Source: Actinomycetes bacterium
Lineage (GTDB): Bacteria; Actinomycetota; Actinomycetes; Actinomycetales; Microbacteriaceae
Length of the DNA stretch: 57,382 nucleotides
Direction of reading: 5' to 3'
NCBI GenBank assembly: GCA_030426515.1
Contig: JAUHYM010000002.1
Span: 1-57,382 of the forward strand
How positions within the stretch are numbered: the first letter of the stretch is position 1; every line of letters begins with the position of its first letter. Under the pieces are notes generated by a model that worked only from the letters and a program-made list of their open reading frames with translations, did no database searches and was not told where the DNA came from. Positions 5,204-28,126 of this stretch are shown one piece after another. The translations under genes were made by a program, and so were the position numbers.

Positions 5204-5958
5204 CAGAGCGAGGTCATCCCGCCGTCGACCTGGAATGTCGCGCCGGTCGCGAAGGCGCCGTCGTCGCTCGCGAGGTAGACCATGATGCCGGCGACATCGT
5301 CGGGGGTGCCGGCGCGGCCGATCGGAATGCGGCCGACGATCGCGGCGCGCGACGCCGGGTCCTCGCTGATCGCGGCCACCAGCGGCGTCTCCGTGTACGC
5401 CGGCTGCACCGTGTTCACGCGGATGCCGCGATCGGCATATGCCGCCGCCACCGTGCGGCCCAGGCCGTGCATCCCCGCCTTCGACGCGCTGTAGGCGGTG
5501 AAGTCCTTCCCCTCGCCGTTCACGGCCGTGGGGCTGCCTGTGAGGATGATGGACCCGCCGCCGTGCGCCAGCATCGTGCGCACCGCGTGCTTGACGGTCA
5601 GGAACGTCCCGGTCAGGTTGATGTCGATCGTGCGCTGCCACACGTCCAGGTCGAGGTCGGCGATCTTGGCATCGTGGCCGAACAGCTGCACGCCGGCGTT
5701 CGCGACGACGACATCCGGTGCCCAGCCCGCCGCCACGACCTCGTCGAAGGCCGCGGTGACCGCGTCCTCGCTCGAGATGTCCATCGTCACCGCGCGGGCG
5801 CTCTCGCCGATCTCGGCGGCGGCGGCGGCCGCTCCGTCGCCGTTGCGGTCGGCGAGGATCACGCGGGCGCCCTCGCGGGCGAACCGCTGTGCGACCGCCA
5901 GTCCGATGCCCAGTGCGCCGCCGGTGATCAGCGCGGTCTTTCCGTCCAGTCGGGTCAT
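5203..5958 (-). CDS. SDR family oxidoreductase (candidate sugar dehydrogenase)
   Basis: TGGALGIG cofactor motif, NAG, YSASK active site; 251 aa. Confidence 0.9.
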   Translation of the reverse strand: MTRLDGKTALITGGALGIGLAVAQRFAREGARVILADRNGDGAAAAAAEIGESARAVTMDISSEDAVTAAFDEVVAAGWAPDVVVANAGVQLFGHDAKIADLDLDVWQRTIDINLTGTFLTVKHAVRTMLAHGGGSIILTGSPTAVNGEGKDFTAYSASKAGMHGLGRTVAAAYADRGIRVNTVQPAYTETPLVAAISEDPASRAAIVGRIPIGRAGTPDDVAGIMVYLASDDGAFATGATFQVDGGMTSL

Positions 5959-5974: not shown

Positions 5975-6838
5975 TCAGCGCTGGATCTCGTCGAGGTGCA
6001 GCATCCGTGCGAGGTTCTTGTCGAGCTCGTCGTCGCGGAAGACCTTCTTCCAGTCGTCCTTGATGATGCTCTCGCGACCGTAGTCCATCGCGATCAGGCA
6101 CGCATCGCTGAACGGGTTGTCGCCGTTGAGGCTGTTGGCCAGGGCGACCTGGGTGTGGCCGAGCAGGATGCTGCGCGCCGCGGCCTCCGGCACCCCCATC
6201 GTGTGCACGGCCTCCTCGAGCGACTCCTTCAGCAGGGCGCCGATCATGCACGCGATCGTCTCGACGAGCGTCGGCTCGAGCTGGGCGAGCTGCTTGATGG
6301 TGACCCAGTGCACGTCGATGACGGGCGCGTAGATCGCGCGCACGGTCGCCTCGACGATCGCCTGCTTGGCCGGGTCGTCGGACTCGATCGCGGCGATCGC
6401 GTCCTGCGGGGCTGCGATGCCGCCGAAGGTGTCGGCCCACTGCTCGGGCGTCTCGCGCTGCAGGAACACCGACGGGTGGCAGGGGTGGGCGACAGCCTGG
6501 ATGACATCGTCGCGCGTGGTGAGAAGGCCCGCGTAGGCGGCCGCGGGGTCGAGCGTCAGCACGATGGAGCCGGGCTTCATCTGCGGCACGAGGTCTGCGG
6601 TCACCGCCTGCAGAGCGAGGTCGGGGACGGCGAGGACGACGATGTCGGCGTCGGCGACGGCGGTCGCGGCGTCGGTCAGCTCGCGGCCGGCTTCCCGGGT
6701 GCGCTCCTGGCCGCCGGGCGAGTTCTCGACGTACGCGACCGTGTGGTCGGTCTTCACGAGGTTGTTGGACACCCGCATGCCCATCTTGCCGCCGGCGCCG
6801 ATGACGGCGATGGCGTAGGTGTCGGTGGCGGTGCTCAT
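5975..6838 (-). CDS. apnO: D-apionate oxidoisomerase-like protein (phosphogluconate dehydrogenase C-terminal-like family)
   Basis: 287 aa; N-terminal Rossmann VIGAGGKMGMRVSNNL, C-terminal PGDH_C-type region; adjacent to OiaC-like gene. Confidence 0.7.
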   Translation of the reverse strand: MSTATDTYAIAVIGAGGKMGMRVSNNLVKTDHTVAYVENSPGGQERTREAGRELTDAATAVADADIVVLAVPDLALQAVTADLVPQMKPGSIVLTLDPAAAYAGLLTTRDDVIQAVAHPCHPSVFLQRETPEQWADTFGGIAAPQDAIAAIESDDPAKQAIVEATVRAIYAPVIDVHWVTIKQLAQLEPTLVETIACMIGALLKESLEEAVHTMGVPEAAARSILLGHTQVALANSLNGDNPFSDACLIAMDYGRESIIKDDWKKVFRDDELDKNLARMLHLDEIQR

Positions 6839-7629
6839 GATGTGCTCCTCAGGTATTCCAGGGTCGCGCGGGTCCAGTCGCGCTCGATTCGGACGGTGGT
6901 CTGGGCATCCTGCTGCCAGGGCAGCCAGTGCTCGACGATCTCGTTCACGCCGCGTTCACGGGGCTTCACGGTCTCGAGCAGGAAGGGGTAGTCGTGCAGG
7001 CCGTCGCCCATGCGAGCGCCGCTGTACGTGAAGCCCACCCAGCCGGGCTGGCGGGCGAAGGCGAAGTCCTTGACGTGCACGTTCGCCACGTGCGGTGCCG
7101 TCGCGGCGATGCAGTCGCGCGGCGATTCGAGCCGGGCGACGACGTTCCCCGGGTCGAGGCAGATGCCCAGCCGGTCGCTGCCGACCTTCTCGACCAGTGC
7201 GACCAGATCGGCGGTGGCGAGCTGCTCGTAGGTCTCGAGCGCGAGCGTCACCCCGGCGGCCTCATATGCTGGCAGGGTCTCGGCGAGCCAGACCGCTGCC
7301 TCGTCGAGAGTGGGTCGCGTGTCGGGCCCGAACACCATGCTGCGGACGAGACCCGCGTCGAAGACCTCGGCGAGTTCGAGGAACCGAGCCAGGTGCGTCG
7401 GGGCGATGCCCTTCGTGCCCAGCTCGATCGTGAGGCCCAGGTCGGATGCCGCGCGGGCGGCGTCCTGAAGCTCGGTGTCGCTCATCAGCTCGAGCGGCGC
7501 GAAGTCGCAGATCTGGAACAGGTCCACCTCGAGCGCCCGCGTCGCCTCGAACGCTCCCGTGAGCGAGAGGGGCCGATCGACGCGGTCGGAGTGCTGCCAG
7601 AAGAACGCGTACGTGCCCAGGCCGATCAC
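6835..7629 (-). CDS. oiaC: Xylose-isomerase-like TIM barrel protein; candidate 3-oxo-isoapionate decarboxylase
   Basis: GTG start at 7629; MIGLGTYAFFWQHS...LFQICDFAPLE...ELGTKGI...LALETYEQLATADLVALVEKVGSDRLGICLDPGNVVARLE; AP endonuclease 2 fold; position between ApnO- and LerI-like genes. Confidence 0.7.
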   Translation of the reverse strand: MIGLGTYAFFWQHSDRVDRPLSLTGAFEATRALEVDLFQICDFAPLELMSDTELQDAARAASDLGLTIELGTKGIAPTHLARFLELAEVFDAGLVRSMVFGPDTRPTLDEAAVWLAETLPAYEAAGVTLALETYEQLATADLVALVEKVGSDRLGICLDPGNVVARLESPRDCIAATAPHVANVHVKDFAFARQPGWVGFTYSGARMGDGLHDYPFLLETVKPRERGVNEIVEHWLPWQQDAQTTVRIERDWTRATLEYLRSTS

Positions 7630-8390
7630 GTCGTCGCCTTCGCGTGTGCGGTGGCTTCGTCGAGGACGGCGATGAGGTTGTCGGGGTCGTGGGCGAAGCG
7701 GCCGAGGAAGAGTCCGTCGACGGCGTCGCCGAGGCGGGTGAGAAGGCCGGGGCCCGCGGACCCGCCGTAGATGACGGCGGATCCTTCCCGGGCGGGGTCG
7801 GCGTCGATCGCCTCCCGCAGGGCACGGGTGACGGTGGCGATGTGGTCGGTGGGGGCGGGTTGGGCGGCGCCGATGGCCCAGACCGGTTCGTACGCGACGA
7901 TCACGGGGCCGGCGGGGGCACCGTCGAGGTCGGTGCGCAGCTGCGCGATGGTCGCGGTCGCGGCGGCCGCGGCATCCTGGTGTTCGGTCTCGCCGATGCA
8001 CAGCACCGGGGTGAGCCCGCTGTTCAGGGCGGCGGCGGCTTTGGCTGCGGTGATCTGGTCGGTCTCGCCGAACAGGCGGCGGCGTTCGGCGTGGCCGATC
8101 TCGGCGAGGGTGACGCCGGTCTCGGCGAGTTCTTCGGCGGTGATCTCGCCGGTGAACGCGCCGGGCCCGTGCTCCGAGACGTCCTGCGCGCCGACGCGGA
8201 TCGGGGTGTCTTCGAAGGCGGTGAGGGCGGCGGGGATCTGCAGGTAGGTCGGGATCACGAAGAACGAGACCAGCCCGGAGCGGATGCCGGGGTGCTGCGC
8301 TGCCCGGTCTGCGACGGTGGTGAACCAGTCGCGCGCCTGGGCGTGGCCGAAGTAGGTCTTCAGGCTCACACCGACGGTGACAGGGGTCAT
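7626..8390 (-). CDS. lerI: Triose-phosphate isomerase family protein; candidate L-erythrulose-1-phosphate isomerase
   Basis: 254 aa with TIM motifs (VSLKTYFG, GAQDVS, IGHAERR, YEPVWAIG, YGGSAGP); GTGA/ATGA overlaps with neighbours; co-located with DhaKL and RpiB genes. Confidence 0.75.
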   Translation of the reverse strand: MTPVTVGVSLKTYFGHAQARDWFTTVADRAAQHPGIRSGLVSFFVIPTYLQIPAALTAFEDTPIRVGAQDVSEHGPGAFTGEITAEELAETGVTLAEIGHAERRRLFGETDQITAAKAAAALNSGLTPVLCIGETEHQDAAAAATATIAQLRTDLDGAPAGPVIVAYEPVWAIGAAQPAPTDHIATVTRALREAIDADPAREGSAVIYGGSAGPGLLTRLGDAVDGLFLGRFAHDPDNLIAVLDEATAHAKATT

Positions 8391-8869
8391 CAGCAGGCTC
8401 CGGTCTCCTCGTACTGCGAGATGACGGCGACCTTCTCGGCGGAGGCGCTGGTGGGGTCGAACCGGTAGGTGAGCCACTCGCGGACGAGGCGGCGGGCGAG
8501 TTCGATGCCGACGACCCGCTGCCCCATGGTGAGGATCTGCGCGTTGTTGGAGAGCACGCCGCGCTCGACCGAGAACGAGTCGTGGGCGGTGACGGCGCGG
8601 ATGCCGGGGACCTTGTTCGCGGCGATCGCGACACCGAGGCCGGTGCCGCAGATCAGCAGCGCCCGGTCGGCATCACCGGTCGCGACGCGCTCGGCGGCTT
8701 CGATCGCGACCTTGGAGTAGGGGGTGTGCCCGTCGGCGTCGACGCCCACGTCGATGACCTCCACGACCCCGGCGTTGTTCTGCAGGTCGTTCTTGAGGAT
8801 CTCCTTGTAGTCGAAGCCGGCGTCGTCGCAGCCGATGACGAGGCGCAGGGGAGCGGGGGTGGCGGTCAT
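8390..8869 (-). CDS. derI: RpiB/LacAB family isomerase; candidate D-erythrulose-4-phosphate isomerase
   Basis: 159 aa; [20 protein letters not shown]...[51 protein letters not shown]. Confidence 0.75.
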
Positions 8870-10605
8870 GTCAGTTCTCCTTGTCGGCGGGCGAGGGTCT
8901 CGCCCACGGCGGTCACGATGAGCGCGAGGGAGATCGCGCCGGGGTCGGGGGTGCCCACGCTGTGCTGCCCGTGGGAGCGGGCGCGGCCCATGCGGGGCAG
9001 CAGGTCCGCGGTCGCGGCGGCCGCGGTGGTCGCGGCAGCCGCGGCGGACCGCCACGCGTCGACGAGGGTGTCGCCGGCATCGACGGCGCGGGTCAGCTCG
9101 GTGGTGAACGGAACGAGCGCGTCGACGAGGGTCTTATCGCCCACCTCGGCCTTGCCGTAGTCGGTCACCCCTGTGCTGCCCGCGGCGACGCCCGCGGCGA
9201 CCGAGGTCGCATCGGGGGTGCCGGTGTCGCCGAGCTTGCCGGCGATCTCGGTGAGGATGACGCCCCACAGGGCGCCGCTGGTGCCGCCGGCCTTATCGGA
9301 CCACGCGTCCGCCGCCCGCTCGAGGGTGGTCTGCGCACCGGCTCCGGCCCGCTGCGCGGTGGTCGCGGCGGCGAGGGCCGCGTGCGAGCCGCGCTGCATC
9401 CCGATGCCGTGGTCGCCGTCGCCCGCGATGGCGTCGATCCGACCCAGCTCGTCGACGTGGGCGTCGACCGTGGCGACGATCGTCTCGACCGCGGCGAGCA
9501 CGGTCGCAGCGGCCGCACGCGAGGCGCCGTCGGCGTCGGGGATCGCCGCGGCGGCCTCCCTGGCGACATCCGTCGTGTCGGCGCGCTGCGCGGCCGCGAC
9601 GACCGAGCCGCGCCGATAGGCGGGGGTGTCGACCGGGGTCTCCCACAGATCCTCGAGCTCGGCATCCAGCCAAAACAGGGTGAGCGAGGTGCCGGCCATG
9701 TCGAAGCTGGTGCAGTATTCGCCCACGTGCGGGTCGACGATCACCGCACCGGCATCCTCCAGCAGCTGCGCGATGCGTCGGTAGACGACGAACATCTCCT
9801 CGTACTTCAACGACCCGAGCCCGTTGAGGATCGGGACCACCCGGGCACCCGCGACATCCACACCCTCGGGCACCTCGGCGAGCAGCTTCTCGACGAGCAG
9901 CTCGGCGAGCCCGTCGGCGGTGGGGATGTCGGTCTCATCGATCCCCGGTTCTCCGTGGATCCCGAGCCCGACCGCCATCCGCCCCTCGGGCACCGAGAAC
10001 AGCGGGCTCTCCGCGCCGGGAAGGGTGCAGCCGGTGAACGCGACCCCGAACGACCGGGTCCGCGCGTTCGCTCGCGCCGCAAGCGCCGTGACCCCGGTGA
10101 GGTCCTCGCCCCGCTCGGCGGCGGCCGCCGCGATCCGGAACACGGTCAGGTCACCGGCGATGCCGCGACGCTTGTGCGCCTCCGACGGGTCGGCGCTGAA
10201 GATGTCGTCGGTCACCGTCACGGTCTCGCACGGGATCCCGGCCTCGCGCAGCCGTTCCTGCGCGGCATCGAAGTTCAGCACGTCCCCGGCGTAGTTGCCG
10301 TACGAGAAGAACACCCCGCCCCCGGCATCCGCGGCCTTCGCCACGCTCGTGATCTGCTGGGTCGAGGGGGAGGCGAACAGGTTGCCCATCGCCGCCCCGT
10401 GGGCCAGGCCCTGACCGACCAGCCCGCCGAACGCCGGGTAGTGCCCCGACCCGCCGCCGATCACCACCGCGACCTGCCCCGCGGGCACGACCGTCGACCG
10501 CACCACCCCACCGGTCACCCGGCGCACATACCGGCCGTTCGCGGCGACGAACCCCTCGATCATCTCGTCCGCGAAATCCGCAGGCTCATTCCACAGGCGC
10601 GTCAT
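8866..10605 (-). CDS. lerK: Dihydroxyacetone kinase family (DhaK-DhaL fusion); candidate L-erythrulose 1-kinase
   Basis: [35 protein letters not shown] (DhaK) followed by [20 protein letters not shown]...[17 protein letters not shown] (DhaL). Confidence 0.85.
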
Positions 10606-10676: not shown

Positions 10677-10710
10677 CCGGTTGACCAATAGCAAGATCCG
10701 GTTGACCAAT
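10677..10710. promoter_or_regulatory. Two tandem copies of a candidate GntR/FadR operator
   Basis: CCGGTTGACCAAT at 10677-10689 and again at 10698-10710 (21 bp apart, about two helical turns) between divergent DhaKL and GntR genes; core GGTTGACC fits FadR-type T.GT..AC.A operators. Confidence 0.75.
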
Positions 10711-10748: not shown

Positions 10749-11483
10749 ATGCCCGCGTATCGCGACAACCCGGACGAGATCACCGCCGCCCTCGGGACCC
10801 TTCCCGCCGGCACGGCCGTGTCCGAGGTCGCGCGACGCCTGCTCGATCTGTTCACGAGCGGATCCATCGAACCGGGTACGCGTCTGCCTCCCGAGCGTCA
10901 GCTCGCAGCGACCCTCGGCGTCGGGCGCTCGGCGGTGCGTGAGGCGCTCGCCGCGCTCGAGATCCTCGGCATCGTCGATGTCCGCCCCGGGTCGGGCACC
11001 TACCTGCGCGGCACCGCCAGCGAGCTGCTGCCGCAGACCCTGCGGTGGGGGCTGCTGATCGGCCAGAAGAGCACCGACGAGCTGCTCGAGCTGCGGTCCG
11101 GGCTCGAGATCTACGTGGCGCGGCTGGCCGCCGGCCGGGCCGAGCCGAACAGGGTCGCACAGCTGAAGGCGAGCCTCGAGCGGATGCGCGCCGACCTCGG
11201 CGACCTGAAGGCCTTCGTGCGCGCCGACATGGAGTTCCACGACGTGCTCGCCTCGACCGCCGGGAACGACACGCTCGTGGACCTGCTCTCGGTGGTGCGC
11301 TCGCTGCTGCACGTCTACGCCGACCGGCGCGTCCACGACGAGGAGAAGGCGCGCGAGGCGCTCGCCGAGCACGAGGCGGTGTTCGCCGCGATCGAGGCGG
11401 CCGACCCGGATGCCGCGGCGAACGCGATGGCCGCGCACATGGCGACCGCCGCCGCCCGTGTCGCCGCCGAGGCCGCCGGCTGA
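10749..11483 (+). CDS. FadR/GntR family transcriptional regulator (FCD domain)
   Basis: SEVARRLLDLFTSGSIEPGTRLPPERQLAATLGVGRSAVREALAALEILGIVDVRPGSGTYL plus FCD-like C-terminus. Confidence 0.92.
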   Translation: MPAYRDNPDEITAALGTLPAGTAVSEVARRLLDLFTSGSIEPGTRLPPERQLAATLGVGRSAVREALAALEILGIVDVRPGSGTYLRGTASELLPQTLRWGLLIGQKSTDELLELRSGLEIYVARLAAGRAEPNRVAQLKASLERMRADLGDLKAFVRADMEFHDVLASTAGNDTLVDLLSVVRSLLHVYADRRVHDEEKAREALAEHEAVFAAIEAADPDAAANAMAAHMATAAARVAAEAAG

Positions 11484-11585: not shown

Positions 11586-12845
11586 ATGGAGCAGAACTGG
11601 GCGGGGACCTACCGCTACACGGCGCCGCGCATGGTCGCGGCCTCCTCGGTCGACGACGTCCGTCGCCTCGTCGCCGAGCCCGGCCGGGTTCACGCGCTGG
11701 GGACGCGTCACTCGTTCACCGACATCCCCGACACGACCGGAACGCTCATCGACGTCACCGGGCTCCCGGCAGAATTCGCTCTCGATGAGGGCGACCAGAC
11801 GGTCACCGTCGCCGCCGGGACCCGCTATGGCGTGCTCGCCCTGTGGCTGCACGAGCGCGGGTGGGCGCTGCGCAACATGGGATCGCTGCCCCACATCAAC
11901 GCCGCCGGTGCGACCGCGACCGGCACCCACGGCTCGGGCGACGCGAACCCCGTGCTCTCGGCCTCGGTGTGCGGCCTGCGGTATGTCGGCGCCGACGCCG
12001 AGGTGCGCGAGGTGCGCCGCGGCGACCCGGACTTCGACGCGCTCGTGGTCGGGCTCGGCGCGTTCGGGATCATCGTCGCCGTCACCCTCGACGTCGTGCC
12101 GACCTTCGATGTGCGGCAGGACATCTACCGCGGGCTCACCTGGCCGAGGTTCCTCGACGACGTCGACGCGGTCACCGGTGCGGGGTACAGCGTGTCGGTC
12201 TTCACTCGGTGGTCGGGTGACGAGGTGGGCGATGTCTGGGTCAAGCGCGTCATCCCCGCCAGCGCCGGCGACGTCGAGGTGGCGCCGGTGATCCTCGATG
12301 CTCGGTGTGCGACCGACGCCGGCTCACGCTTCGATGACGTCATCGGCGAGAACCGCACCCCGGTCGGCGAGCCCGGTCCCTGGATGCTGCGGCTGCCGCA
12401 TTTTCGGCTGGACGCGACCCCGTCGATGGGGGAGGAGATCCAGACCGAGTACCTCGTCCCTCGCGCTCACGCGGCCGCAGCACTCGACGCGATCCGGCCG
12501 CTGGCCGCGGCGCTGGACCCGCACCTGGGCGTGACCGAACTGCGCACCGCCGCACGGGATGACCTCTGGTTGAGCCCGGCCTACGAGCGCGACGCGTTCA
12601 TCATCCACTTCACCTGGTACGACCATCCGCGGGAGGTCGGTGCGCTCATCCCTCAGATCGAGGCCGCGCTCGCCCCGTTCGACGCGCGCCCGCACTGGGG
12701 CAAGCAGCACGCGTTCGACCGGGCCGCGATCGAACGCGTCCACCCGCGTCTGGCCGATGCGCGCGCCGTGTTCGAGCGCCTCGACCCCGAGGGGCGGTTC
12801 GTCAACGACCACCTCGTCCGCGTCGGCGTGCGCGAGCCGCGCTGA
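11586..12845 (+). CDS. FAD-dependent alditol oxidase (xylitol/sorbitol oxidase family)
   Basis: MEQNWAGTYRYTAPRMVAASSVDDVRRLVAEPGRVHALGTRHSFTDIPDTTG...ATGTHGSGDANPVLS...FDARPHWGKQHAF, hallmarks of AldO/XyoA proteins. Confidence 0.88.
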   Translation: MEQNWAGTYRYTAPRMVAASSVDDVRRLVAEPGRVHALGTRHSFTDIPDTTGTLIDVTGLPAEFALDEGDQTVTVAAGTRYGVLALWLHERGWALRNMGSLPHINAAGATATGTHGSGDANPVLSASVCGLRYVGADAEVREVRRGDPDFDALVVGLGAFGIIVAVTLDVVPTFDVRQDIYRGLTWPRFLDDVDAVTGAGYSVSVFTRWSGDEVGDVWVKRVIPASAGDVEVAPVILDARCATDAGSRFDDVIGENRTPVGEPGPWMLRLPHFRLDATPSMGEEIQTEYLVPRAHAAAALDAIRPLAAALDPHLGVTELRTAARDDLWLSPAYERDAFIIHFTWYDHPREVGALIPQIEAALAPFDARPHWGKQHAFDRAAIERVHPRLADARAVFERLDPEGRFVNDHLVRVGVREPR

Positions 12846-12963: not shown

Positions 12964-14028
12964 ATGACCCGTATCCCTACGCCCGAGAACGCCGCCGCCG
13001 AGGCGGTCACCGCCTCGTGGAGCCTCGGTGAGACGCCGTGGCAGGTGATCCCGCCGGTCTCCCCGCCCCGGGCTCGCGTGATCATCGACAACGACTTCGC
13101 CGGCGACCCGGACGACCTGTACCAGCTCGTTCACCATCTGCTGTCGCCGAGCGTGGAGATCCCGCTCATCGTCGCGTCGCACCTTCGCGCGGACGACCCC
13201 TTCGACCCGAGCGGTCGCAGCGCCGAGAACGCGCAGGCGATCGTGCGCGACGTGTTCGGGCGGATGGGGCTCGCCTCCACCGACCGCATCGTCCGCGGAT
13301 CGAACGACGCCCTCGCGGGCGCGGCGACCCCGCAGCCGGCGCCGGCGGTCGACGCGATCATCGCGGAGGCGCTGCGTGACGACGACCGGCCACTGTTCTA
13401 TGTCGCCGGCGGTGGGCTCACCGATCTCGCGTCGGCGCTGCTGACCGAGCCGCGGATCGCGGAGCGGATGACGCTGATCTGGATCGGCGGCGCCGAGCAC
13501 GAGGGGCTCGCGGTGCCGCCGCCGAACGCGATGCCGATCGAGTACAACCTGCTGATCGACGTCACCGCCGGGCAGGTCGTGTTCGCCTCCGACATCCCGA
13601 TCTGGCAGATCCCGCGCGACGTATACCGGCAGTGCCTCGTCTCGGACGCCGAACTGCGGATGCGGGTCGCCGCGACGGGACCGCTGGGTCGGTACCTGTA
13701 CGACGAGCTCGCGATGGTGTTCGCCATGATCGGCACACACCTGGGGGGCGCGTCGGAGTCGTACGCGCTGGGGGACTCGCCGCTCGTGCTCCTGACCGCG
13801 CTGCAGTCGGTGTTCGAGCCGGACTCGTCGTCGAGCCGGCACGTCACCATGCCCACCCCCGCGATCACGGACGACGGCGGCTACCGCGCGGTAAAGGGTG
13901 CGCGCCCGATGCGCGTGTACACCTGGGTCGACACCCGGCTCATGTTCGAGGACATGTACCTCAAGCTCGCCGAGTTCGGCGAGTGGCAGGACGCCACGGG
14001 CGCGTTCGACGATCGGGCCGAGGGATGA
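12964..14028 (+). CDS. Inosine-uridine nucleoside hydrolase-fold protein
   Basis: Ca/ribose-binding signature ARVIIDNDFAGDPDDLYQLVHHL and downstream EYNLLIDVTAGQVVF (cf. EFN...DPEA motif). Confidence 0.8.
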   Translation: MTRIPTPENAAAEAVTASWSLGETPWQVIPPVSPPRARVIIDNDFAGDPDDLYQLVHHLLSPSVEIPLIVASHLRADDPFDPSGRSAENAQAIVRDVFGRMGLASTDRIVRGSNDALAGAATPQPAPAVDAIIAEALRDDDRPLFYVAGGGLTDLASALLTEPRIAERMTLIWIGGAEHEGLAVPPPNAMPIEYNLLIDVTAGQVVFASDIPIWQIPRDVYRQCLVSDAELRMRVAATGPLGRYLYDELAMVFAMIGTHLGGASESYALGDSPLVLLTALQSVFEPDSSSSRHVTMPTPAITDDGGYRAVKGARPMRVYTWVDTRLMFEDMYLKLAEFGEWQDATGAFDDRAEG

Positions 14029-15467
14029 GCGGGCGCACCGGGCGCCCCCGCACGATCGTCACCGCCGATCCCGAGCTCGACGATCTCAACTCCCTGCTGC
14101 GGTTCCTGCTGTACACGAACGAGGTCGAGGTCGAGGGCCTCGTCTACGCCAGCAGCCGGTTCCACTGGAAGGGCGACGGGCAGGGCACCGAGTTCTTCCT
14201 GCCCGAGCGCGAGTACGACACCCCGCAGACCTCCTGGCGGTGGGCGCCGGGTGAGCGGTTCATCCACGACGCGGTCGACGCCTACGCCGAGGTCTACGAC
14301 AACCTGGTCGTGCACGACCCGCGCTACCCGTCACCGGCCACACTGCGCGGGCTCATCCGCGAGGGGAACGTCGACTTCGAGGGCGATACCCGTGCCGAGA
14401 CGCCTGGATCCCGCCTCATCGCCGACGCGCTGCTCGCCGACAGCCCCGGCCCGCTGTTCCTGCAGCTGTGGGCGGGCCCCAGCACCGTGGCGCGCGCCCT
14501 CATGTCGATCGAGGAGCGCTACCGCGGCACCGAGGCCTGGGAGCGGGTGCGCGCCGAGGTGTCGGCGAAGGCGGTCATCACCAAGTTCGCATCGCAGGAC
14601 GCCACCTACGACGACTACATCCTGCCGGTCTGGCCGGACATCCGCGTGATCGAGGTCGCCACCCTCGCGTGGGGGTACATGGTGCGCAAGACGCTGCCCG
14701 AGGAGGATCTGCCGCTGCTGGGCGCCGACTGGATGCGCGAGAACATCACCAGCGCGGGACCGCTCGGCGCGCTCTACCGCGTGTGGGGCGATGGCATCCA
14801 GATGGCACCCGGCGACATGACCGACTACTTCGGTCTGTCGGGGCTCAGCGCCGACGAGCTGCGCGAGCAGGGGTACCGCGTGTGGATGGATCCACAGCCG
14901 GCGGGCGAGTGGATCTCGGAGGGCGACACCACCAACATGCTCAACCTGCTGGTGCCGGGCCTGCGTGGCCACGAGCACCCCGCGTTCGGCGGGTGGGGTG
15001 GGCGTGCTGCGCGCACCGACGTCGGCCCGGACACCTGGGCCATCGACGACGCCGCGTTCGGTCGCGGGGGCGACGAGGCATCCGTCACCCGCTGGTTCGC
15101 CGCGGCGCAGGCCGACTTCGCCGCACGACTGCAGTGGTCGGTGACCCCGGCGTATGCGGACGCGAACCACGCGCCTGTGATCACCGTCGCCGACGGCATC
15201 GACCGGACGGTCGCGCCCGGTGAGCGCGTGGCCCTGACCGCCACCGCGTCCGACCCGGACGGCGACGACGTCACCTGTCGCTGGTTCCTCTACCCCGAGG
15301 CGGGTTCGGCCCCGACGGCCACGCTCGAGGGTGACGGTGCCGAGGCGACCGTCGTCGTGCCGGCCGATGCGAGGGCGGGGGCGACGATCCACGCGATCGT
15401 CGAAGCGAAGGATGCTGCGCCGAGACCTCTGACGGCCTGGCAGCGGGTGATCCTCACCGTCCGCTGA
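14025..15467 (+). CDS. Nucleoside hydrolase-like DUF1593 (Sde182-type) protein with C-terminal Ig-like domain
   Basis: RPRTIVTADPELDDLNSLLRFLLYTNEVEVEGLVYASSRFHWKGDGQ...; C-terminal ASDPDGDDVTCRWFLYPEAGS beta-sandwich; ATGA overlap with upstream gene. Confidence 0.85.
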   Translation: MSGRTGRPRTIVTADPELDDLNSLLRFLLYTNEVEVEGLVYASSRFHWKGDGQGTEFFLPEREYDTPQTSWRWAPGERFIHDAVDAYAEVYDNLVVHDPRYPSPATLRGLIREGNVDFEGDTRAETPGSRLIADALLADSPGPLFLQLWAGPSTVARALMSIEERYRGTEAWERVRAEVSAKAVITKFASQDATYDDYILPVWPDIRVIEVATLAWGYMVRKTLPEEDLPLLGADWMRENITSAGPLGALYRVWGDGIQMAPGDMTDYFGLSGLSADELREQGYRVWMDPQPAGEWISEGDTTNMLNLLVPGLRGHEHPAFGGWGGRAARTDVGPDTWAIDDAAFGRGGDEASVTRWFAAAQADFAARLQWSVTPAYADANHAPVITVADGIDRTVAPGERVALTATASDPDGDDVTCRWFLYPEAGSAPTATLEGDGAEATVVVPADARAGATIHAIVEAKDAAPRPLTAWQRVILTVR

Positions 15468-16531: not shown

Positions 16532-19303
16532 TCAGGCCGTCGCCTCCCGCACGGCGGCGTCGACCTGCGCGAGCAGGTCCGGTGGCGTGAACATCAGCGC
16601 GGTGGCCAGGGGGCGTCCGCGGCCCCAGGTCGTTCCTGCGCGCACCGCCTCGGCGCGCCCCGGGTCGGCGGCGGCCAGCGTGTCGATCAGCGCCCGGTAC
16701 GCGCGCGGATCGTCGATCACGTCGGCGAGCGACGCGTCGAGTCCCGGCAGCGCGAGCGGGGCAGCGGCGACGGGCGCCGGGATCCGCCACTCGTGGGGGC
16801 CCGAGCCCACGGTCACAGGCTCGTCGCCGAGGTCGACGACCGCCGTCGTGTTCGCCGGGACGACCGCCTGGACGACGATCTCGTCGCCGTCGCGCCGCCA
16901 CGACACCGTCGCCTCGCCGTACGGGGTGAGGTGGCGGGCGGATGCCGCGTCGAGCCCGGCGAGCGGCCGCGGTGCGATGCGCAGGCGGCGGTAGCCGGGG
17001 GCATCCGGGGCGAGACCCGCGACCGTGCGGTGCATCCAGTCGGCGACCGCGCCGAGTGCGTAGTGGTTGAACGACGTCATCTCGCCGGGGTTGATCGTGC
17101 CGTCGGGCAGCATCGAATCCCAGCGCTCCCAGATGGTCGTCGCCCCCATCGTCACGGGGTACAGCCACGAGGGATTCTCGGTCTGGGTGAGCAGCCGCTC
17201 CGCTTCGTGCAGGTACCCGGCGTCGGTCAGCGCGTCGGTGACCAGCGGGGTCCCGACGAACCCGGTGCCGATGCGGTAGCCGCCCTCGCGCACGAGGTCG
17301 GCGAGCCGTGCCGCGAGCCCGGCGCGCACCGTGTCGTCGCGCACGAGGTCGAACTCGAGAGCGAGGGCGTAGGCGGTGGGCGCGTCGCTCATCATGCGAC
17401 CGGCGGGGGTGACGTACTCGGCGACGAACGCCTCGCGGCTGCGCGCGGCCAGGGCGCCGTAGCGCTCCGCGTCGGCACTGTCGCCGAGCAGGGTCGCGGC
17501 GTCGGCGACCTGCTGCAGTGACCGGGCCAGGTAGGCCGTCGCGACGATGTCGCCGTCGACCTTCGCCGCGCCCGGGTTCTCGGGCGGCGCCGACGGGTCG
17601 AGCCAGTCGCCCAGCTGCATGCGGCCCGCCCACAAGCCGGTGTCGCCGGCGTCGGCGAGCACGGCGTCGACCCAGTCGCGCATGCTGCGGTACTGGTCGG
17701 CGACGACTCCGGCATCCCCGAACCGCTCGTGCAGAACGGTCGGGACGACCGTCGCGGCATCGCCCCAGGCCGCCGTCGGCCCGCCGCCGCCGAACGCGGG
17801 AAGCGCCGACGGGATGACCAGGGGAACCGTGCCGGCGGCGCGGTCCTGCTCGAGGGCGAGATCGCGCAGCCACGACGTGAGGAATCCGTCGCAGTCGTAC
17901 AGGAAGCTCGCGGTCGGCGCGAAGACCTGGATGTCGCCGGTCCAGCCCAGACGCTCATCGCGCTGCGGGCAGTCGGTGGGGATGGACACGAAGTTACCGC
18001 GCATGCCCCACACGACGTTCTCGTGCAGGCGATTCAGCATCGGGTCGGAGGTCTCGAACCAGCCGGTGCGCGGCATGTCGGTGTGCAGGACCACCGCCTC
18101 GATGTCGCCCGGGTCGATGTCTGCCCCCGTGACCTCGGCGTACCGGAAGCCGTAGAACGAGAACCGCGACTCGAGGAGGTCATCGCCGCCGGTGAGCTCG
18201 AAGGTCGCGGTCGCGGCGGCGTTGCGGAGCGGCCGCACGCCGAGTTCACCGTGCTCGAGCACCTCGGCATGGCGGACGACGACGCGCTGACCCGCGGTGC
18301 CCCGCACGCGCAGCCGCAGGCGCCCGACGATGTTCTGCCCGACATCGAGCACGGTGCCGCCGGACGGTGTCGCGATCGTTCCGGCGATGGGCAGCGTCTG
18401 GGTGCGGCGCACCGGCGGGGCGATGCGCGCCTCGGGCACCGGGACCGGCTCGAACCCGGGGTTCGCCGCGGGACCGACCCGCACCGGCTGCCAGTGCGAC
18501 GCGTGCCGTCGCAGATCCTGGTGCTCGCCGGCGTAGATCCCGCTGTCGACGACGGAGCCGTCGCCCGCGGCCTCCCAATCGGCGCCGGTCGCGCCGATGG
18601 TCTCGGTCGAGCCGTCGGAGTAGGTCACCCGCACCTGGGCGAGGAACGACGGCTGCGTGCCGTAGAGACGCTGCGCGAACCCGTGGAATCCGTACTTCTC
18701 GGTGTACCAGGCGCCCGCCACCGTGGCGGCCAGTTCGTTCTCGCCCTCCGTGAGGAGATCGGTGATGTCGGCGGTCTCGTGCACGAGGCGGTCGCGGTAG
18801 GCGGTCCAGCCGGGGGAGAGGACGTCGTCCGAGACGGGCTGCCCGTTCACGGTCGGCTCGGCGACGCCGAGGGCCGTCCAGAACAGGACGGCGGTGTCCA
18901 CGGCGCGGGTGAGGGTGAAGCGCGTGCGCGTCTCGAACGGCTGGGCGTCGCGGTCCGCGTCGGCAAGACCCACCGGGAGCGCCGCCCATTCGCCGTCGGC
19001 CAGGAAGCCGGCCGTCACGGTCAGCGGTGCGCTGTCGGCGGTGGCGCCGGAGGCTGCGGTGATGCGCGCGGTCACGCGGCGGGTCTCGCCCGCCGTCAGT
19101 GGCGCGAACGGCCAGGGGACGAGCACGCTGTCGGTCCCCTCCACGGTCGTGGTGGTGGTGCCGTCGCTCAGTTCGACGGATTCCTGCACCCAGTCGGGTT
19201 CCGCGCCCTCGATCCGCCAGGTGAGACGCGGCGTGGCCGAGGCCACCAGAGGGGTGTCGTCGCGCAGCTCGGCGCGCAGGACCGCGGTCGGGGCATCCGT
19301 CAT
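16532..19303 (-). CDS. Alpha-L-rhamnosidase (GH78)
   Basis: FVSIPTDCPQRDERLGWTGDIQVFAPTASFLYD...QLGDWLDPSAPPENPGAAK...GATTIWERWDSM...SFNHYALGAVADWMHRTVAGL; start ATG 19303 overlaps upstream stop. Confidence 0.93.
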   Translation of the reverse strand: MTDAPTAVLRAELRDDTPLVASATPRLTWRIEGAEPDWVQESVELSDGTTTTTVEGTDSVLVPWPFAPLTAGETRRVTARITAASGATADSAPLTVTAGFLADGEWAALPVGLADADRDAQPFETRTRFTLTRAVDTAVLFWTALGVAEPTVNGQPVSDDVLSPGWTAYRDRLVHETADITDLLTEGENELAATVAGAWYTEKYGFHGFAQRLYGTQPSFLAQVRVTYSDGSTETIGATGADWEAAGDGSVVDSGIYAGEHQDLRRHASHWQPVRVGPAANPGFEPVPVPEARIAPPVRRTQTLPIAGTIATPSGGTVLDVGQNIVGRLRLRVRGTAGQRVVVRHAEVLEHGELGVRPLRNAAATATFELTGGDDLLESRFSFYGFRYAEVTGADIDPGDIEAVVLHTDMPRTGWFETSDPMLNRLHENVVWGMRGNFVSIPTDCPQRDERLGWTGDIQVFAPTASFLYDCDGFLTSWLRDLALEQDRAAGTVPLVIPSALPAFGGGGPTAAWGDAATVVPTVLHERFGDAGVVADQYRSMRDWVDAVLADAGDTGLWAGRMQLGDWLDPSAPPENPGAAKVDGDIVATAYLARSLQQVADAATLLGDSADAERYGALAARSREAFVAEYVTPAGRMMSDAPTAYALALEFDLVRDDTVRAGLAARLADLVREGGYRIGTGFVGTPLVTDALTDAGYLHEAERLLTQTENPSWLYPVTMGATTIWERWDSMLPDGTINPGEMTSFNHYALGAVADWMHRTVAGLAPDAPGYRRLRIAPRPLAGLDAASARHLTPYGEATVSWRRDGDEIVVQAVVPANTTAVVDLGDEPVTVGSGPHEWRIPAPVAAAPLALPGLDASLADVIDDPRAYRALIDTLAAADPGRAEAVRAGTTWGRGRPLATALMFTPPDLLAQVDAAVREATA

Positions 19304-20808
19304 TCGTCGTCTCCTTCGGCGATCCACGTGCGCACCCGGACGGTGCCCTCGACAGCGTAGACGCCGACGACGCGACCCGTGAAGGATTCGGTGACCTCGG
19401 AGGAGAGGAACCGGCCGTCGAACGAGGCGATCTCGACGCGCTGCCCGTCGATCGTCGCCGCCAGGTGGAACACGTCGCTCGTGCCCACCATGCCGACCGC
19501 GCCCTCGGGCGGGCGCGAGGCCAGGTGCAGATCGAGGGTCGTCTGCGCGGTGGGGTGGGACCAGGTCTGCACGATGTCGCCGACGACCGCCCGGGCGACC
19601 ACGGCACCCGAGCCCGCCTCGAGCTCGACCCGGAAGCGCTCGTCGTAGCGCACGGCGAGACCGCCGATCCCGCCGGCGATGTCGATGCCGACCGTGACCT
19701 CGTTCGTCAGGTGCTCCTGACGGCGGCCGAGGAACACCGGCTGCGCGTCGGCGAGCGTGCTGCCGTCGGCGGTCAGCACGAGCGCGTCGCCGTCGCGGCT
19801 GGCGACCTCTTCGGGGAGGCGGCGGACGGCGATCCACTCGTCGTCGAGGAGGTCGGCGAAATCGACCTCCACCCGGGTGCCGCCGCGCGGGTTCAGCGTC
19901 ACCGGAGCGATCTGCGGCCAGCCCTCAGCCCACGTGACGGGCGACACGAACGTCTCGCGGCCGAGCGCCGAGAACGCTCGGGTGCCGCTGCGCGGACGCA
20001 CGCCGAGCAGGACGCACAGCCACCGGTCGTCGGGGCCGACCACGAGGTCGCCATGACCGGTGTTCTGGATCGGGCGCGGGGTCGAGCGCGCCGAGACCAG
20101 CGGGTTGCCCGGCGCTCCCTCGAACGGCCCCGCAGGGCTGTCGCCGCGGGCGATCGAGATCGCGTGGCCGCGCTCGGTGCCGCCCTCGGCGATCATCAGA
20201 TACCAGGCGCCGTCGATCTCATACAGGTGCGGGGCCTCGGGGAACATGAGCCCCGTGCCCGACCACAGCGACCGCGGCTCCTCGAGTGCCGTGTGGGTCG
20301 TCAGGTCGACGGTCACCTGCTGGATGCCCAGGTGCGTCGGCGCATTCGGGTTGAGGTCTCCCGACAGCTGCAGGCCCGAGAACGTGACGTAGCAGGTGCC
20401 GTCGGCATCCCACGCGATGTCCGGGTCGATTCCGAACACGCTCTCGTCTCCGTCCGCGACGGTGATGAGGTCTCCGTCGCTCCACGGCCCGGCCGCGTCC
20501 TCGGCGGTGAAGTGCAGCATCCCGCGGCCCATCGCGTCGGTGATGACGAGGTGGAACAGACCGTCGTGGTGGCGGATCGTCGGGGCCCACGCGCCGCCGC
20601 CGGTGGGCACCTCGGCAACGCCGAGCTGACCCGGCCGGGTGGCGACGTGGCCGATGAGCTCCCACGTTTCGAAGTCGGTCGAGCGGTGGATCGGGATGCC
20701 GGGCAGATACTCGAACGACGATGTCGCGAGGTACCAGGCATCGCCGACCCGCACGACGCTGGGATCGGGGTGGAAGCCGTTGAGCAGGGGGTTGTGCAGG
20801 GTCGTCAT
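19300..20808 (-). CDS. Glycoside hydrolase family 43 (beta-xylosidase/arabinofuranosidase-like)
   Basis: NPLLNGFHPDPSVVRVGDAWYLATSSFEYLPGIPIHRSTDFETWELIGH...WAPTIRHHDGLFHLV...GHGDLV. Confidence 0.92.
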   Translation of the reverse strand: MTTLHNPLLNGFHPDPSVVRVGDAWYLATSSFEYLPGIPIHRSTDFETWELIGHVATRPGQLGVAEVPTGGGAWAPTIRHHDGLFHLVITDAMGRGMLHFTAEDAAGPWSDGDLITVADGDESVFGIDPDIAWDADGTCYVTFSGLQLSGDLNPNAPTHLGIQQVTVDLTTHTALEEPRSLWSGTGLMFPEAPHLYEIDGAWYLMIAEGGTERGHAISIARGDSPAGPFEGAPGNPLVSARSTPRPIQNTGHGDLVVGPDDRWLCVLLGVRPRSGTRAFSALGRETFVSPVTWAEGWPQIAPVTLNPRGGTRVEVDFADLLDDEWIAVRRLPEEVASRDGDALVLTADGSTLADAQPVFLGRRQEHLTNEVTVGIDIAGGIGGLAVRYDERFRVELEAGSGAVVARAVVGDIVQTWSHPTAQTTLDLHLASRPPEGAVGMVGTSDVFHLAATIDGQRVEIASFDGRFLSSEVTESFTGRVVGVYAVEGTVRVRTWIAEGDDE

Positions 20809-20860
20809 CGCGGTCTCCGGTCGTCAGGGGTGAATCGGGATGCCGCCGTCGGGCGGCGCG

Positions 20861-21979
20861 TCAGCTCAGCAGCGGGGCCAGGTCGGTGGCCAGACGGAGA
20901 GCGCGCGGGTCGGCGCCCCCGGGCCAGGGGCCGCGGGCGATCGTCCACGCGAACGCGATGCCCGTGTCGGGGTCGACGCAGGCGAGGGCGCCCATCGCGC
21001 CGTCGTGGCCGAACGCGCGCGGACCGCCGAAGGCGAGACCCGGGGTCGGCTTCTGGAACACGATCGCGTGCGCCCGGTGCGGCTGACCGAGCACCTCGTC
21101 GTAGCCACGCACCTGCTGCTGGCCGATGGCGGCGACCGTGTCGGCGCGCAGGACGGGTGCGGCGTCGTCGATGCCGGTCACCATCACGGCGAACAGCTTC
21201 GCCAGACCCCGCGCCGTGCCGGTGCCCGATCCTGCGGGGTGCCCGAAGCGCCACGAGCGCTCGTCGTTGGCGAGGTCCACGGGCTCTCCCGGGGTGACGA
21301 ACACGAGCGGGCCCAGCAGTGAGCTGTGGATCGTGGACGTGTCGTCGGCGGGCGGGATCATCGGGAGCGTCGCCACGCGGCGCTCATCCTGGCCCTGCGG
21401 CAGCCCCAGGAAGAAGTCGATGTCGTGCGGCGCGCGGATCTCGTCTTCGTAGAACGCGTGGAGGGTGCGCCCGGTCGCGCGGAAGACGAGCTCGGATGCG
21501 AGGTTGCCGATCGTGACCGCGTGGTAGCCGAACGCGCTCCCCGGCTGCCAGAACGGCGTGGATGCGGCGAGCCGCTCCGCCGCGGCATGGTCATCCAGCA
21601 GCTCATCCCAGGTGAGCGACGGAGTCGCCTGGGGAAGACCTGCCTGGTGCGACAGCAGCTGGCGCACCGTCACCGCGCTCTTGCCCTTCGAGGCGAACTC
21701 GGGCCACAGATCGGCGACCGGTGCGTCCAGATCGAGACGCCCCTGTTCGATGAGCAGACCGACCGACAGGCCGATGGTGTTCTTGGTGACCGAGTAGGGG
21801 ACCGTGACCGAGTGCTCGCCGAGGTGGGGGCCACCCCACACGTCCAGGACGCGGCGCCCGTGGTGGAACGCCGCCGCCTGGAACGACAGGTCGGGGTCGG
21901 CCGCGAGGAAGCCGGCGAGCCGCTCACGGACCGGATCGAGCCGCTCGTCGACGAAGCCGTGCAGCACCGCGTCGGTCAC
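20861..21979 (-). CDS. Serine hydrolase (beta-lactamase class C / family VIII esterase)
   Basis: GTG start overlapping the GH3 stop; PYSVTKNTIGLSVGLLIEQGRLDLDAPVADLWPEF (SxxK), YHA, GHDGAMG motifs. Confidence 0.88.
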   Translation of the reverse strand: MTDAVLHGFVDERLDPVRERLAGFLAADPDLSFQAAAFHHGRRVLDVWGGPHLGEHSVTVPYSVTKNTIGLSVGLLIEQGRLDLDAPVADLWPEFASKGKSAVTVRQLLSHQAGLPQATPSLTWDELLDDHAAAERLAASTPFWQPGSAFGYHAVTIGNLASELVFRATGRTLHAFYEDEIRAPHDIDFFLGLPQGQDERRVATLPMIPPADDTSTIHSSLLGPLVFVTPGEPVDLANDERSWRFGHPAGSGTGTARGLAKLFAVMVTGIDDAAPVLRADTVAAIGQQQVRGYDEVLGQPHRAHAIVFQKPTPGLAFGGPRAFGHDGAMGALACVDPDTGIAFAWTIARGPWPGGADPRALRLATDLAPLLS

Positions 21980-24408
21980 GACCGCGGATCCCAGAGCAGC
22001 GAGAGAGGCAGGTCGGCGATCGACGATCCGACGCGCAGCGCGAACGCGCCCTCCTCGACATCCCAGCCGTCCCCCGCCCAGTGCGCGAAACGGCGCGACG
22101 GGAGAGGGATGCGCGTCGTCGCCGTCTCGCCCGCCTCGGCGCGGACGACCGCGTACCCCACCAGCCAGCGCACCGGGCGCTCGACGGTGGAGTCGGCGCG
22201 CTCCGCGTAGACCTGCACGACCTGCGAGCCGGCGCGCGCGCCGGTGTTTCGCAGGGTCACCTCGAGCTCGTCGCCGACGCTGGTCGCGTCGTTCCACGAC
22301 CAGGTCGTGTATCCGAGGCCGTGACCGAACGGGAACGCCGGCGCGATGCCGTCCTTCAGCCACGCGCGGTATCCGATGTGGATGCCTTCGGTGTAGGGCA
22401 GGGCGCCATCGCGCGGGGTGACCTGGGTCACCGGCACATCCGAGAGGGCAGCCGGCCAGGTCGTCGGCAGGCGTCCGCCCGGCTCGGCCGCGCCGGTCAG
22501 CACGTCGGCGATGGCGCTGCCGAACTCCTGCCCGCCGAAGTAGCCCTGCACGATCGCGGCCACGTCATCCGCCCAGGGCAGCACGACCGGGGATCCTGCA
22601 TTGACGACCACGACGGTCGGGGTCCCTGTCGCGGCGACCGCGCGCACCAGATCGTCCTGCCGCCCGGGCAGGTCGAGGTTCTCGCGGTCGTAGCCCTCGG
22701 ACTCGACCTTGGCGTTCGTCCCGACGACGACGATCGCGACGTCGGCGCCGGCTGCGGAGGTCGCAGCGCGCGCGATCAGCTCGTCGGGGTCGGTCTGCTC
22801 GGGGGCGATCCCGAGCGTCGCCGACAGGGCGCCCGACAGCGCGCTGTCGCTCTCGCCTGTCCGCAGCTCCACCCGCAGTCGGCGGGTGACGCCCGCCTCG
22901 ACCGCGACCGGCGCGGTCAGCGAGGGCGGGTTCAGGAACGCGGCGCCCAGGTCGCTGCCCTCGATGACGGGCGCATCGTCGAGCACGACCTCACCGTCGA
23001 CGGTGAGAGTGCCGGGGTTCGCTCCGGCGAACCCGAGAAGGATCTCGCCGGTCGTCTCGGCGGTGTAGTCGGTCTCGAGCACGATGCGGCGACTGGCCGC
23101 GATGGGCGCGTCGCCGCCGAACCAGACGAGGGCGGTGGAACGGCGGTCTTCGGCGAACAGCTCGCTGCCCGCCTCGTCGAAGAAGCTCACGCGGATGCCG
23201 GGCTCGCCGGTGACCGGGTTCGTGAGGCGCTGCAGAGGGATCTCGGCGACGCCCTCCTGCACAACCGCGCCGATCTCGTACGAGACCTCGGCGTGGGTCA
23301 GTGCGGCGCGCAGACCGTCGAGCGGGGTGACGACCTGCTCGGGCAGCACGGTGGCGCTGCCGCCGCCCTGGGTGCGGGCATCCCGAGCGTTGTGGCCGAT
23401 CACCGCCACCCGCGTCAGCGCGGGGGCGTCGAGGGGGAGAACGCCGGCGTTGGTGAGCAGGACGGTGCCGGCGACGCCCGCCTCGCGGGCGAATGCCCGG
23501 GCGTCGACGGGGGTGGTCGCAGCCTCGGCAGTGCCCTCGAGCGCGCCGACGCGTTCGGCGAGCAGCAGAAGGCGCAGCACCTTGCGGTCGATGTCGGCCT
23601 CGTCGACCTCTCCGTCGCGGACGGCGGTGACCAGGTCGGCGTAGGCGGGGGCGGGTCCCGGCATCGCGAGGTCCTGAGCGGCGGGGATCGCGTCGAGCGA
23701 GCGCACGGCGGTCCAGTCGCTGATGACCACGCCGTCGAAGCCCCACTCGCTGTTCAGCGGTGTCTCCAGGAGCGCGTTCTCGGTCATCGTGACCCCGCCG
23801 ACCGCGTTGTACGCGCTCATGATCGTCCACGCGCCGGCGTCCACGGCGCGCTCGAACGGAGCGAGGTAGAGCTCGCGCAGCGGCCGGTCCTCGACCTGCA
23901 CGTCGACGGTGAACCGGTCGGTCTCGCTGTCGTTTGCGACGTAGTGCTTGGGGCAGGCGCCGACCCCGTTGTCCTGCAGCCCGCGCACGTAGGCGGCGGC
24001 GAGCCCGCCGGTCAGCTCGGGGTCCTCGCTGAAGCACTCGAAGTGCCGGCCACCCAGCGGCGACCGGTGCAGGTTGATGGTGGGTCCCAGCACCACATCG
24101 ACGTTCTTGCGTCGGGCCTCGGACGCCGCGGCGGCACCGTAGCGGTACGCGAGGTCGTCGTCCCAGGACGCCGCCAGCGCCGACCCGGAGGGCAGGTTCA
24201 GCGACGGCTCGCGCTCATCCCACCGGGGCCCGCGGACCCCCGCGGGGCCGTCCGAGAGCGTCATCGCGCGCAATCCGATCTCGGGCAGCGGCACCGTCGT
24301 CCAGAAGTCCGCACCCTGGATGAGCGCCGCCTTCTGCTCGAGGCTGAGCCTGTCGAGCAGCGGACGCAGATGGTCGACGGATGTCGCCGCGGGATCGAGC
24401 GCGGTCAT
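21976..24408 (-). CDS. GH3 beta-glucosidase-type enzyme with PA14-like insertion
   Basis: MTLSDGPAGVRGPRWDE, KHYVANDSE, VVISDWTAV (nucleophile region), VRVSFFDEAGSELFAEDRRS PA14-like stretch, C-terminal Fn3-like domain. Confidence 0.92.
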   Translation of the reverse strand: MTALDPAATSVDHLRPLLDRLSLEQKAALIQGADFWTTVPLPEIGLRAMTLSDGPAGVRGPRWDEREPSLNLPSGSALAASWDDDLAYRYGAAAASEARRKNVDVVLGPTINLHRSPLGGRHFECFSEDPELTGGLAAAYVRGLQDNGVGACPKHYVANDSETDRFTVDVQVEDRPLRELYLAPFERAVDAGAWTIMSAYNAVGGVTMTENALLETPLNSEWGFDGVVISDWTAVRSLDAIPAAQDLAMPGPAPAYADLVTAVRDGEVDEADIDRKVLRLLLLAERVGALEGTAEAATTPVDARAFAREAGVAGTVLLTNAGVLPLDAPALTRVAVIGHNARDARTQGGGSATVLPEQVVTPLDGLRAALTHAEVSYEIGAVVQEGVAEIPLQRLTNPVTGEPGIRVSFFDEAGSELFAEDRRSTALVWFGGDAPIAASRRIVLETDYTAETTGEILLGFAGANPGTLTVDGEVVLDDAPVIEGSDLGAAFLNPPSLTAPVAVEAGVTRRLRVELRTGESDSALSGALSATLGIAPEQTDPDELIARAATSAAGADVAIVVVGTNAKVESEGYDRENLDLPGRQDDLVRAVAATGTPTVVVVNAGSPVVLPWADDVAAIVQGYFGGQEFGSAIADVLTGAAEPGGRLPTTWPAALSDVPVTQVTPRDGALPYTEGIHIGYRAWLKDGIAPAFPFGHGLGYTTWSWNDATSVGDELEVTLRNTGARAGSQVVQVYAERADSTVERPVRWLVGYAVVRAEAGETATTRIPLPSRRFAHWAGDGWDVEEGAFALRVGSSIADLPLSLLWDPRS

Positions 24409-28068: not shown

Positions 28069-28092
28069 GTCGCGTCCCTGTCAGATCAGCTC

Positions 28093-28118
28093 CGGCCCGC
28101 CCCCGAGAGGGCGGGCCG
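28093..28118 (-). terminator. Intra-operon stem-loop between substrate-binding protein and permease genes
   Basis: CGGCCCGCCC / GGGCGGGCCG perfect 10-bp stem with 6-nt loop. Confidence 0.6.
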
Positions 28119-28126
28119 AAGGGTGA

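Follow-up and report, generated by a model that had tools for sequence, protein, structure and literature searches.

Introduction

What do two proteins of the nucleoside hydrolase (NH) fold act on when their genes share an operator with an operon for the degradation of D-apiose? The question is raised by a 57,382-nucleotide stretch of DNA (positions 1 to 57,382 of contig JAUHYM010000002.1; hereafter, the window) from a member of Microbacteriaceae, the genome of which has been recovered to 2.52 Mb and is approximately 73% complete. Apiose occurs in RG-II, saponins, and flavonoid glycosides such as apiin, and GH140 is, to our knowledge, the principal family of known apiosidase sequences. The GH140 enzyme BT1012 is a β-apiosidase that releases D-apiose from β-apiofuranoside (PMC7939467), and a specific β-D-apiosidase has been named as a missing tool in a review of platycosides (PMC9952785). 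A first-pass annotation of the window had proposed that the two proteins, referred to as P1 and P2, act on O-apiofuranosides or another furanoside rather than on nucleosides, and the present analysis, which draws on genomic and structural evidence only, gives this proposal strong support for P1 and moderate support for P2. P1 is likely to be a cytosolic Ca2+-dependent β-D-apiofuranosidase built on the NH fold, although its catalysis, metal, and substrate are inferred, and P2 is put forward only tentatively as a companion furanosidase of the same fold, its activity also being inferred.

Genes, Families, and Structure of P1 and P2

The genes for P1 (354 aa; 12964..14028, forward strand) and P2 (480 aa; 14025..15467, forward strand) have the lengths and positions previously assigned to them and overlap by ATGA (14025..14028, forward strand), which joins the stop of P1 to the start of P2 in an arrangement indicative of translational coupling. 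P1 matches the Pfam family IU_nuc_hydro (PF01156; 62.2 bits, cut-off 34.2), and the recovered genome, approximately 73% complete, encodes no other PF01156 protein. The AlphaFold model of P1 is of high quality (pLDDT 93.4, pTM 0.93), and its best matches in the PDB are all nucleoside or riboside hydrolases (TMq 0.57–0.65, Foldseek probability 1.00), including E. coli RihA (1yoe, 3g5i) and Crithidia IU-NH (2mas) with TMq of about 0.6; membership of P1 in the NH fold is thus directly supported by the model and these listed matches. P2 matches both Sde182_NH-like (PF07632; 201.4 bits, cut-off 26.8) and Sde0182_C (PF21027; 58.8 bits, cut-off 27), and these matches establish it as an Sde182-like (DUF1593) protein with an NH-like domain and a C-terminal β-sandwich, as in Saccharophagus Sde_0182 (PF07632). 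The only solved relative of P2 is the Sde_0182 structure 2yhg, and the model of P2 (pLDDT 75) is too poor for a fold search. P2 differs from Sde_0182 in that the N-terminal carbohydrate-binding modules of the full-length protein are absent from its 480 residues in the Pfam scan, no signal peptide is seen, and it is translated with P1 under an apiose operator. Another PF07632 gene (G000:C3:19645-20508, L001) elsewhere in the genome matches the family more strongly than P2. Neither N-terminus resembles a signal peptide by inspection, made without a predictor, and both proteins are therefore probably cytosolic. Furthermore, the Pfam scan revealed no PF13204 (GH140) match for P1 or P2; BT1012 catalyzes the reaction proposed for P1 but belongs to an unrelated family.

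The Apiose Operon and the Shared Operator

A complete oxidative apiose operon lies on the strand opposite to P1–P2. Except for ApnL, the enzyme names are presumptive and are taken from general knowledge of the apiose pathway. Briefly, the operon (all on the reverse strand) encodes an ApnL-like apionolactonase (3479..5203; NF049900, E=6e-63, 213 bits, below the equivalog cut-off of 750), an SDR oxidoreductase that is probably apiose 1-dehydrogenase (5203..5958; profile match and operon position), an ApnO-like apionate oxidoisomerase (5975..6838; assigned by operon position, with only weak matches to dehydrogenase families), an OiaC-like decarboxylase with an AP_endonuc_2 TIM barrel (6835..7629; PF01261), a LerI-like protein of the triose-phosphate-isomerase family (7626..8390; profile match), a DerI/RpiB-like isomerase (8390..8869; TIGR02133, above cut-off), and a LerK-like DAK-family kinase (8866..10605; NF011049, above cut-off). 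The naming of the pathway rests on this general knowledge together with the NCBIfam ApnL model and the literature (PMC13001218). Divergent from the operon is the gene of a FadR-type GntR/FCD regulator (10749..11483, forward strand; PF00392, PF07729), followed before P1 by a FAD-linked, ALO-type protein resembling sugar-lactone oxidases (11586..12845, forward strand; PF04030, PF01565). The latter gene keeps the same place in five related loci (L139–L143), and its product might oxidize apiose or apionolactone directly. Downstream of P1–P2, genes for a GH78 rhamnosidase, a GH43 protein, a serine hydrolase, a GH3 protein, and a Dpp/Opp-type ABC importer with its binding protein, all recurrent neighbors of P1, occupy 16532..29659 on the reverse strand, and a Gfo/Idh gene is also present downstream; the GH78, GH43, and GH3 neighbors are inferred to fit rhamnose-, xylose-, and glucose-bearing apiosides (e.g., saponins or flavonoid glycosides) or RG-II fragments. 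None of the annotated genes nearby was seen to belong to nucleobase metabolism, in line with the first-pass annotation.

The same annotation had described a shared operator, and this claim is borne out. The recovered genome as a whole contains three copies of the operator TTGGTCAACCGG, all at this locus and located by sequence search: one approximately 67–68 nt before P1 (12897..12908, forward strand), which is kept before P1 in relatives, and two in the GntR/DAK intergenic region (10677..10688 and 10698..10709, both on the reverse strand). A search of the 2.52-Mb genome for ATTGGTCAACCGG gives exactly three sites (10677, 10698, and 12896), with no further copy when one mismatch is allowed and no copy of its reversed sequence. 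The 12-mer also precedes P1 in ten homologous loci (L139–142, 144, 145, 148, and 151–153), and in the same or related species it precedes DAK/GntR, MFS, or SDR-ApnL genes; in M. suaedae (L147), the apiose operon ends with P1, and P2 has an operator copy of its own. Across 1.55 Mb of homologous loci, 23 exact copies were found, all intergenic, vs. 0 for the reversed control. A chance occurrence is ruled out by these counts, and the observed sharing of the operator with apiose genes, conserved in other Microbacterium species and in Brachybacterium, places P1–P2 in the apiose regulon. Binding of the operator by the GntR protein is inferred. The MFS transporter gene preceded by the operator in L139–L141 (about 4590) is a candidate apiose permease. 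Among the homologous loci, L144 (JASDDH010000025.1) is labeled Planococcus sp. APC 4015 and is nevertheless Microbacterium-like (P1 74% and ApnO 86% identity); the record is therefore probably mislabeled or contaminated.

Co-Occurrence of P1 and P2 With Apiose Pathways

The earlier proposal would have been refuted by a consistent absence of apiose genes from other genomes with homologues, and the opposite was observed. Of 299 related genomes of the family, 24 contain a close P1 homologue (≥51% identity and >300 bits), and all 24 carry an apiose pathway, vs. 43 of the 275 without P1 (p=6e-18); when collapsed by genus, the corresponding figures are 16/16 and 20/69 (p=9e-8). These p values are descriptive, as genomes are not phylogenetically independent and no correction beyond genus was made. 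ApnO, representing the oxidative pathway, is present in 21/24 genomes with P1 and in 40/275 others (p=1.7e-13), and in the three P1 genomes lacking ApnO, the gene for ApsI, of the isomerase/kinase/transketolase pathway, lies 4.4 kb from P1. ApsI was used as the marker of this non-oxidative pathway and was labeled by position and family, because NCBIfam has no equivalog model for ApsI, AplK, or AptAB and E. coli lacks ApsI; with such models lacking, the apiose genes of E. coli SE15 served as the reference. ApsI is present in only 8/300 genomes, five of which carry P1. P2 is rarer than P1 and was found in 12 genomes, 11 of them with P1 and 11 with ApnO. The link to ApnO is absent (2/8) in a distant IUNH clade (≤42% identity), which served as an internal control.

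The best-surviving alternative, although an unlikely one, is that P1 and P2 cleave some other plant furanoside (an L-arabinofuranoside, a ribofuranoside, or the aceric acid of RG-II) and travel with apiose genes because their hosts feed on plant polymers. P1 indeed often lies beside GH43, GH78, and GH3 genes, and rhamnose isomerase is enriched in the genomes with P1 (23/24). Association as a mere by-product of a plant-sugar lifestyle was examined by stratification: among genomes positive for rhamnose isomerase, ApnO is present in 20/23 with P1 vs. 34/136 without (p=2e-8), and the association thus persists. Another substrate is disfavored by the operator, which is confined to the apiose regulon. 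Furthermore, it is established chemistry that β-D-apiofuranose and β-ribosides both present a cis-2,3-diol on the side of the ring away from the aglycone, and that arabinofuranosides have no such diol for the Ca2+ of the NH site to chelate.

P1 Loci and Two Unrelated Pathways

The neighbors of P1 were surveyed in 80 named loci. In approximately 14 (Microbacterium, Okibacterium, Brachybacterium, Planctomonas, and Arthrobacter), oxidative apiose genes occur within 10 kb, as in the window, and about 14 others (Arachnia, Puerhibacterium, Demequina, Tessaracoccus, Actinomyces, Ruania, Bifidobacteriaceae, Diaminobutyricibacter, and Spirochaetaceae) contain an FGGY kinase, a split transketolase, an AP_endonuc_2 isomerase, and a SorC regulator. 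The kinase, transketolase halves, and regulator of the latter are 35–50% identical to the apiose cluster of E. coli SE15, and the gene row in Arachnia (L154) reads GH78-P1-P2-AptA-AptB-AplK-ApsI. The carriers of this second arrangement outside Microbacteriaceae include Actinomyces, Demequina, Arachnia, Bifidobacteriaceae, and Spirochaetes. E. coli strains with the SE15-type cluster grow on D-apiose (PMC13001218). The SE15 cluster contains no NH-fold glycosidase. We know of no described apiose cluster, whether of the ApnL/ApnO/OiaC or of the ApsI/AplK/AptAB kind, that includes one. The two pathways are intermingled across the P1 tree, and 46/61 P1-clade rows come from a genome with one or the other; in many genomes, P1 lies beside GH3, GH78, and ABC genes with the apiose genes elsewhere. 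For the remaining 15/61 rows (Bacteroidota, Cryobacterium, Arachnia beside GH1, and some Cellulomonas), neither pathway was found, which leaves some room for another furanoside, whereas the adjacency of P1 to two unrelated apiose pathways argues against it. Bacteroidota homologues of P1 (L191, L210, L211, and L214), for which no apiose genes were found, have signal-peptide-like starts and may represent a periplasmic form that acts on another substrate. In Brachybacterium (L148, L149, and L151), a second IUNH paralogue, 35% identical, follows P1 in the apiose-linked cluster.

The two pathways have in common only the need for free D-apiose, and the main argument for P1 as a glycosidase is that the supply of this sugar is the step common to both. 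The same point weighs against the rather improbable reading that P1 and P2 serve apiose metabolism without being glycosidases, e.g., as a mutarotase, lactonase, or sensor that binds apiose. In favor of this reading, XopQ and Sde_0182 are NH-like proteins that are inactive yet retain sugar binding (PMC8910321), and part of the P1 clade has Gly in place of the Asp equivalent to the Ca2+ ligand D15; however, the oxidative route already has the lactonase ApnL, the isomerase route has no lactone, and all 43 P1 homologues examined share the catalytic-site residues D42, D44, D48, D50, E193, and N195.

No match to GH140 (PF13204), the known apiosidase family, was found in the source genome, which is incomplete (approximately 73%). 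Among the 24 P1 genomes, a strong PF13204 match is present in only one and weak relatives in several; such relatives near P1 could be the apiosidase in some genomes and are not excluded there. Divergent PF13204 proteins with DUF5060/DUF5605 lie beside P1 in L171, L182, L186, L188, L190, L194, and L195 (Rathayibacter, Devosia, and others) and are possible further apioside enzymes.

Active Site

In nucleoside hydrolases, the Asp residues of a DxDxxxDD motif together with a late Asp coordinate a Ca2+ that in turn chelates O2′ and O3′ (PMC8910321). The attacking water approaches from the side opposite the β bond, the leaving group is activated by a His that precedes the late Asp, and the base is bound by a Val/Ile-His loop located between β3 and α3 (PMC8910321). 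P1 retains the Asp cluster, Thr, Glu-x-Asn, and C-terminal Asp (D42, D44, D48, D50, T153, E193, N195, and D271), and D271 is invariant in 43/43 homologues along with the six residues named above. The metal-binding signatures IDNDFAGDPDDLYQL and VTADPELDDLNSL reported for the pair are present, with a reservation concerning P1: its motif, DNDFAGDPDD, contains the fingerprint Asp residues, but the spacing is DxDxxxDxDD, two residues longer than the canonical DxDxxxDD, and 12/43 homologues have Gly in place of the last Asp (residue 51 of the alignment), which corresponds to the Ca2+ ligand D15. Because this Asp is replaced by Gly, metal binding must differ in those 12, where the site must be completed differently. 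P2 keeps DPELDD and the SEGD301 motif.

The first-pass annotation had called for a check on loss of the base-binding pocket, and loss of the base-contacting loop is observed in the P1 clade. The segment with the base-contacting Val/Ile-His loop (β3–α3) is absent in 43/43 P1-clade sequences, the N160-equivalent position is mostly Leu, and the His before the last Ca-ligand Asp is replaced by Gly in an invariant G270-D271 pair, as it is in P2, while most metal- and diol-binding residues are kept. D271 was placed in register by hand with the help of secondary structure, and the MAFFT alignment differs in this column. H73, which is nearly invariant and was aligned by hand with N39, is inferred to be a candidate acid.

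That P1 is an ordinary nucleoside hydrolase placed here by accident, as its PF01156 membership and NH fold alone might suggest, is very improbable and was rejected on these residue losses and on a genomic context of apiose rather than nucleobase genes, with co-regulation kept over several genera and the only characterized protein of the P2 family, Sde_0182, inactive on nucleosides (PMC8910321).

Proposed Function and Significance

For P1 as an apiofuranosidase, the following mechanism is envisaged. Plant apiosides would be imported, P1 would free D-apiose in the cytosol, and the adjacent GntR-controlled operon would oxidize it to central metabolites. Bound Ca2+ is expected to chelate the cis-2,3-diol of apiofuranose, as it does the O2′/O3′ diol of ribose, and to hold the water that would attack C1 on the face opposite the β aglycone; with neither the nucleobase loop nor the customary leaving-group His present, the pocket may take an O-linked aglycone. 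P2, presumably translated together with P1, would be the companion furanosidase and probably acts on another apiosyl linkage than P1, a division of labor that is itself inferred.

Searches of the open literature uncovered no apiosidase with the NH fold; subscription papers were outside their scope, and a prior description is thus possible. On balance, P1, and possibly P2, may represent new glycoside hydrolase families, i.e., apiose-specific O-furanosidases with the NH fold and a Ca2+ that chelates the diol, so that apiose release would serve both pathways and the orphan Sde182/DUF1593 family would gain a substrate. The finding predicts where apiosidases are located in many Actinobacteria and some Proteobacteria and Spirochaetes. 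If it is true, a fold known for the cleavage of N-ribosides can also cut O-furanosides, and a testable substrate would be available for the Sde182/DUF1593 family, the sole studied member of which retains Ca2+, shows no activity on nucleosides, and is believed to interact with furanoses (PMC8910321).
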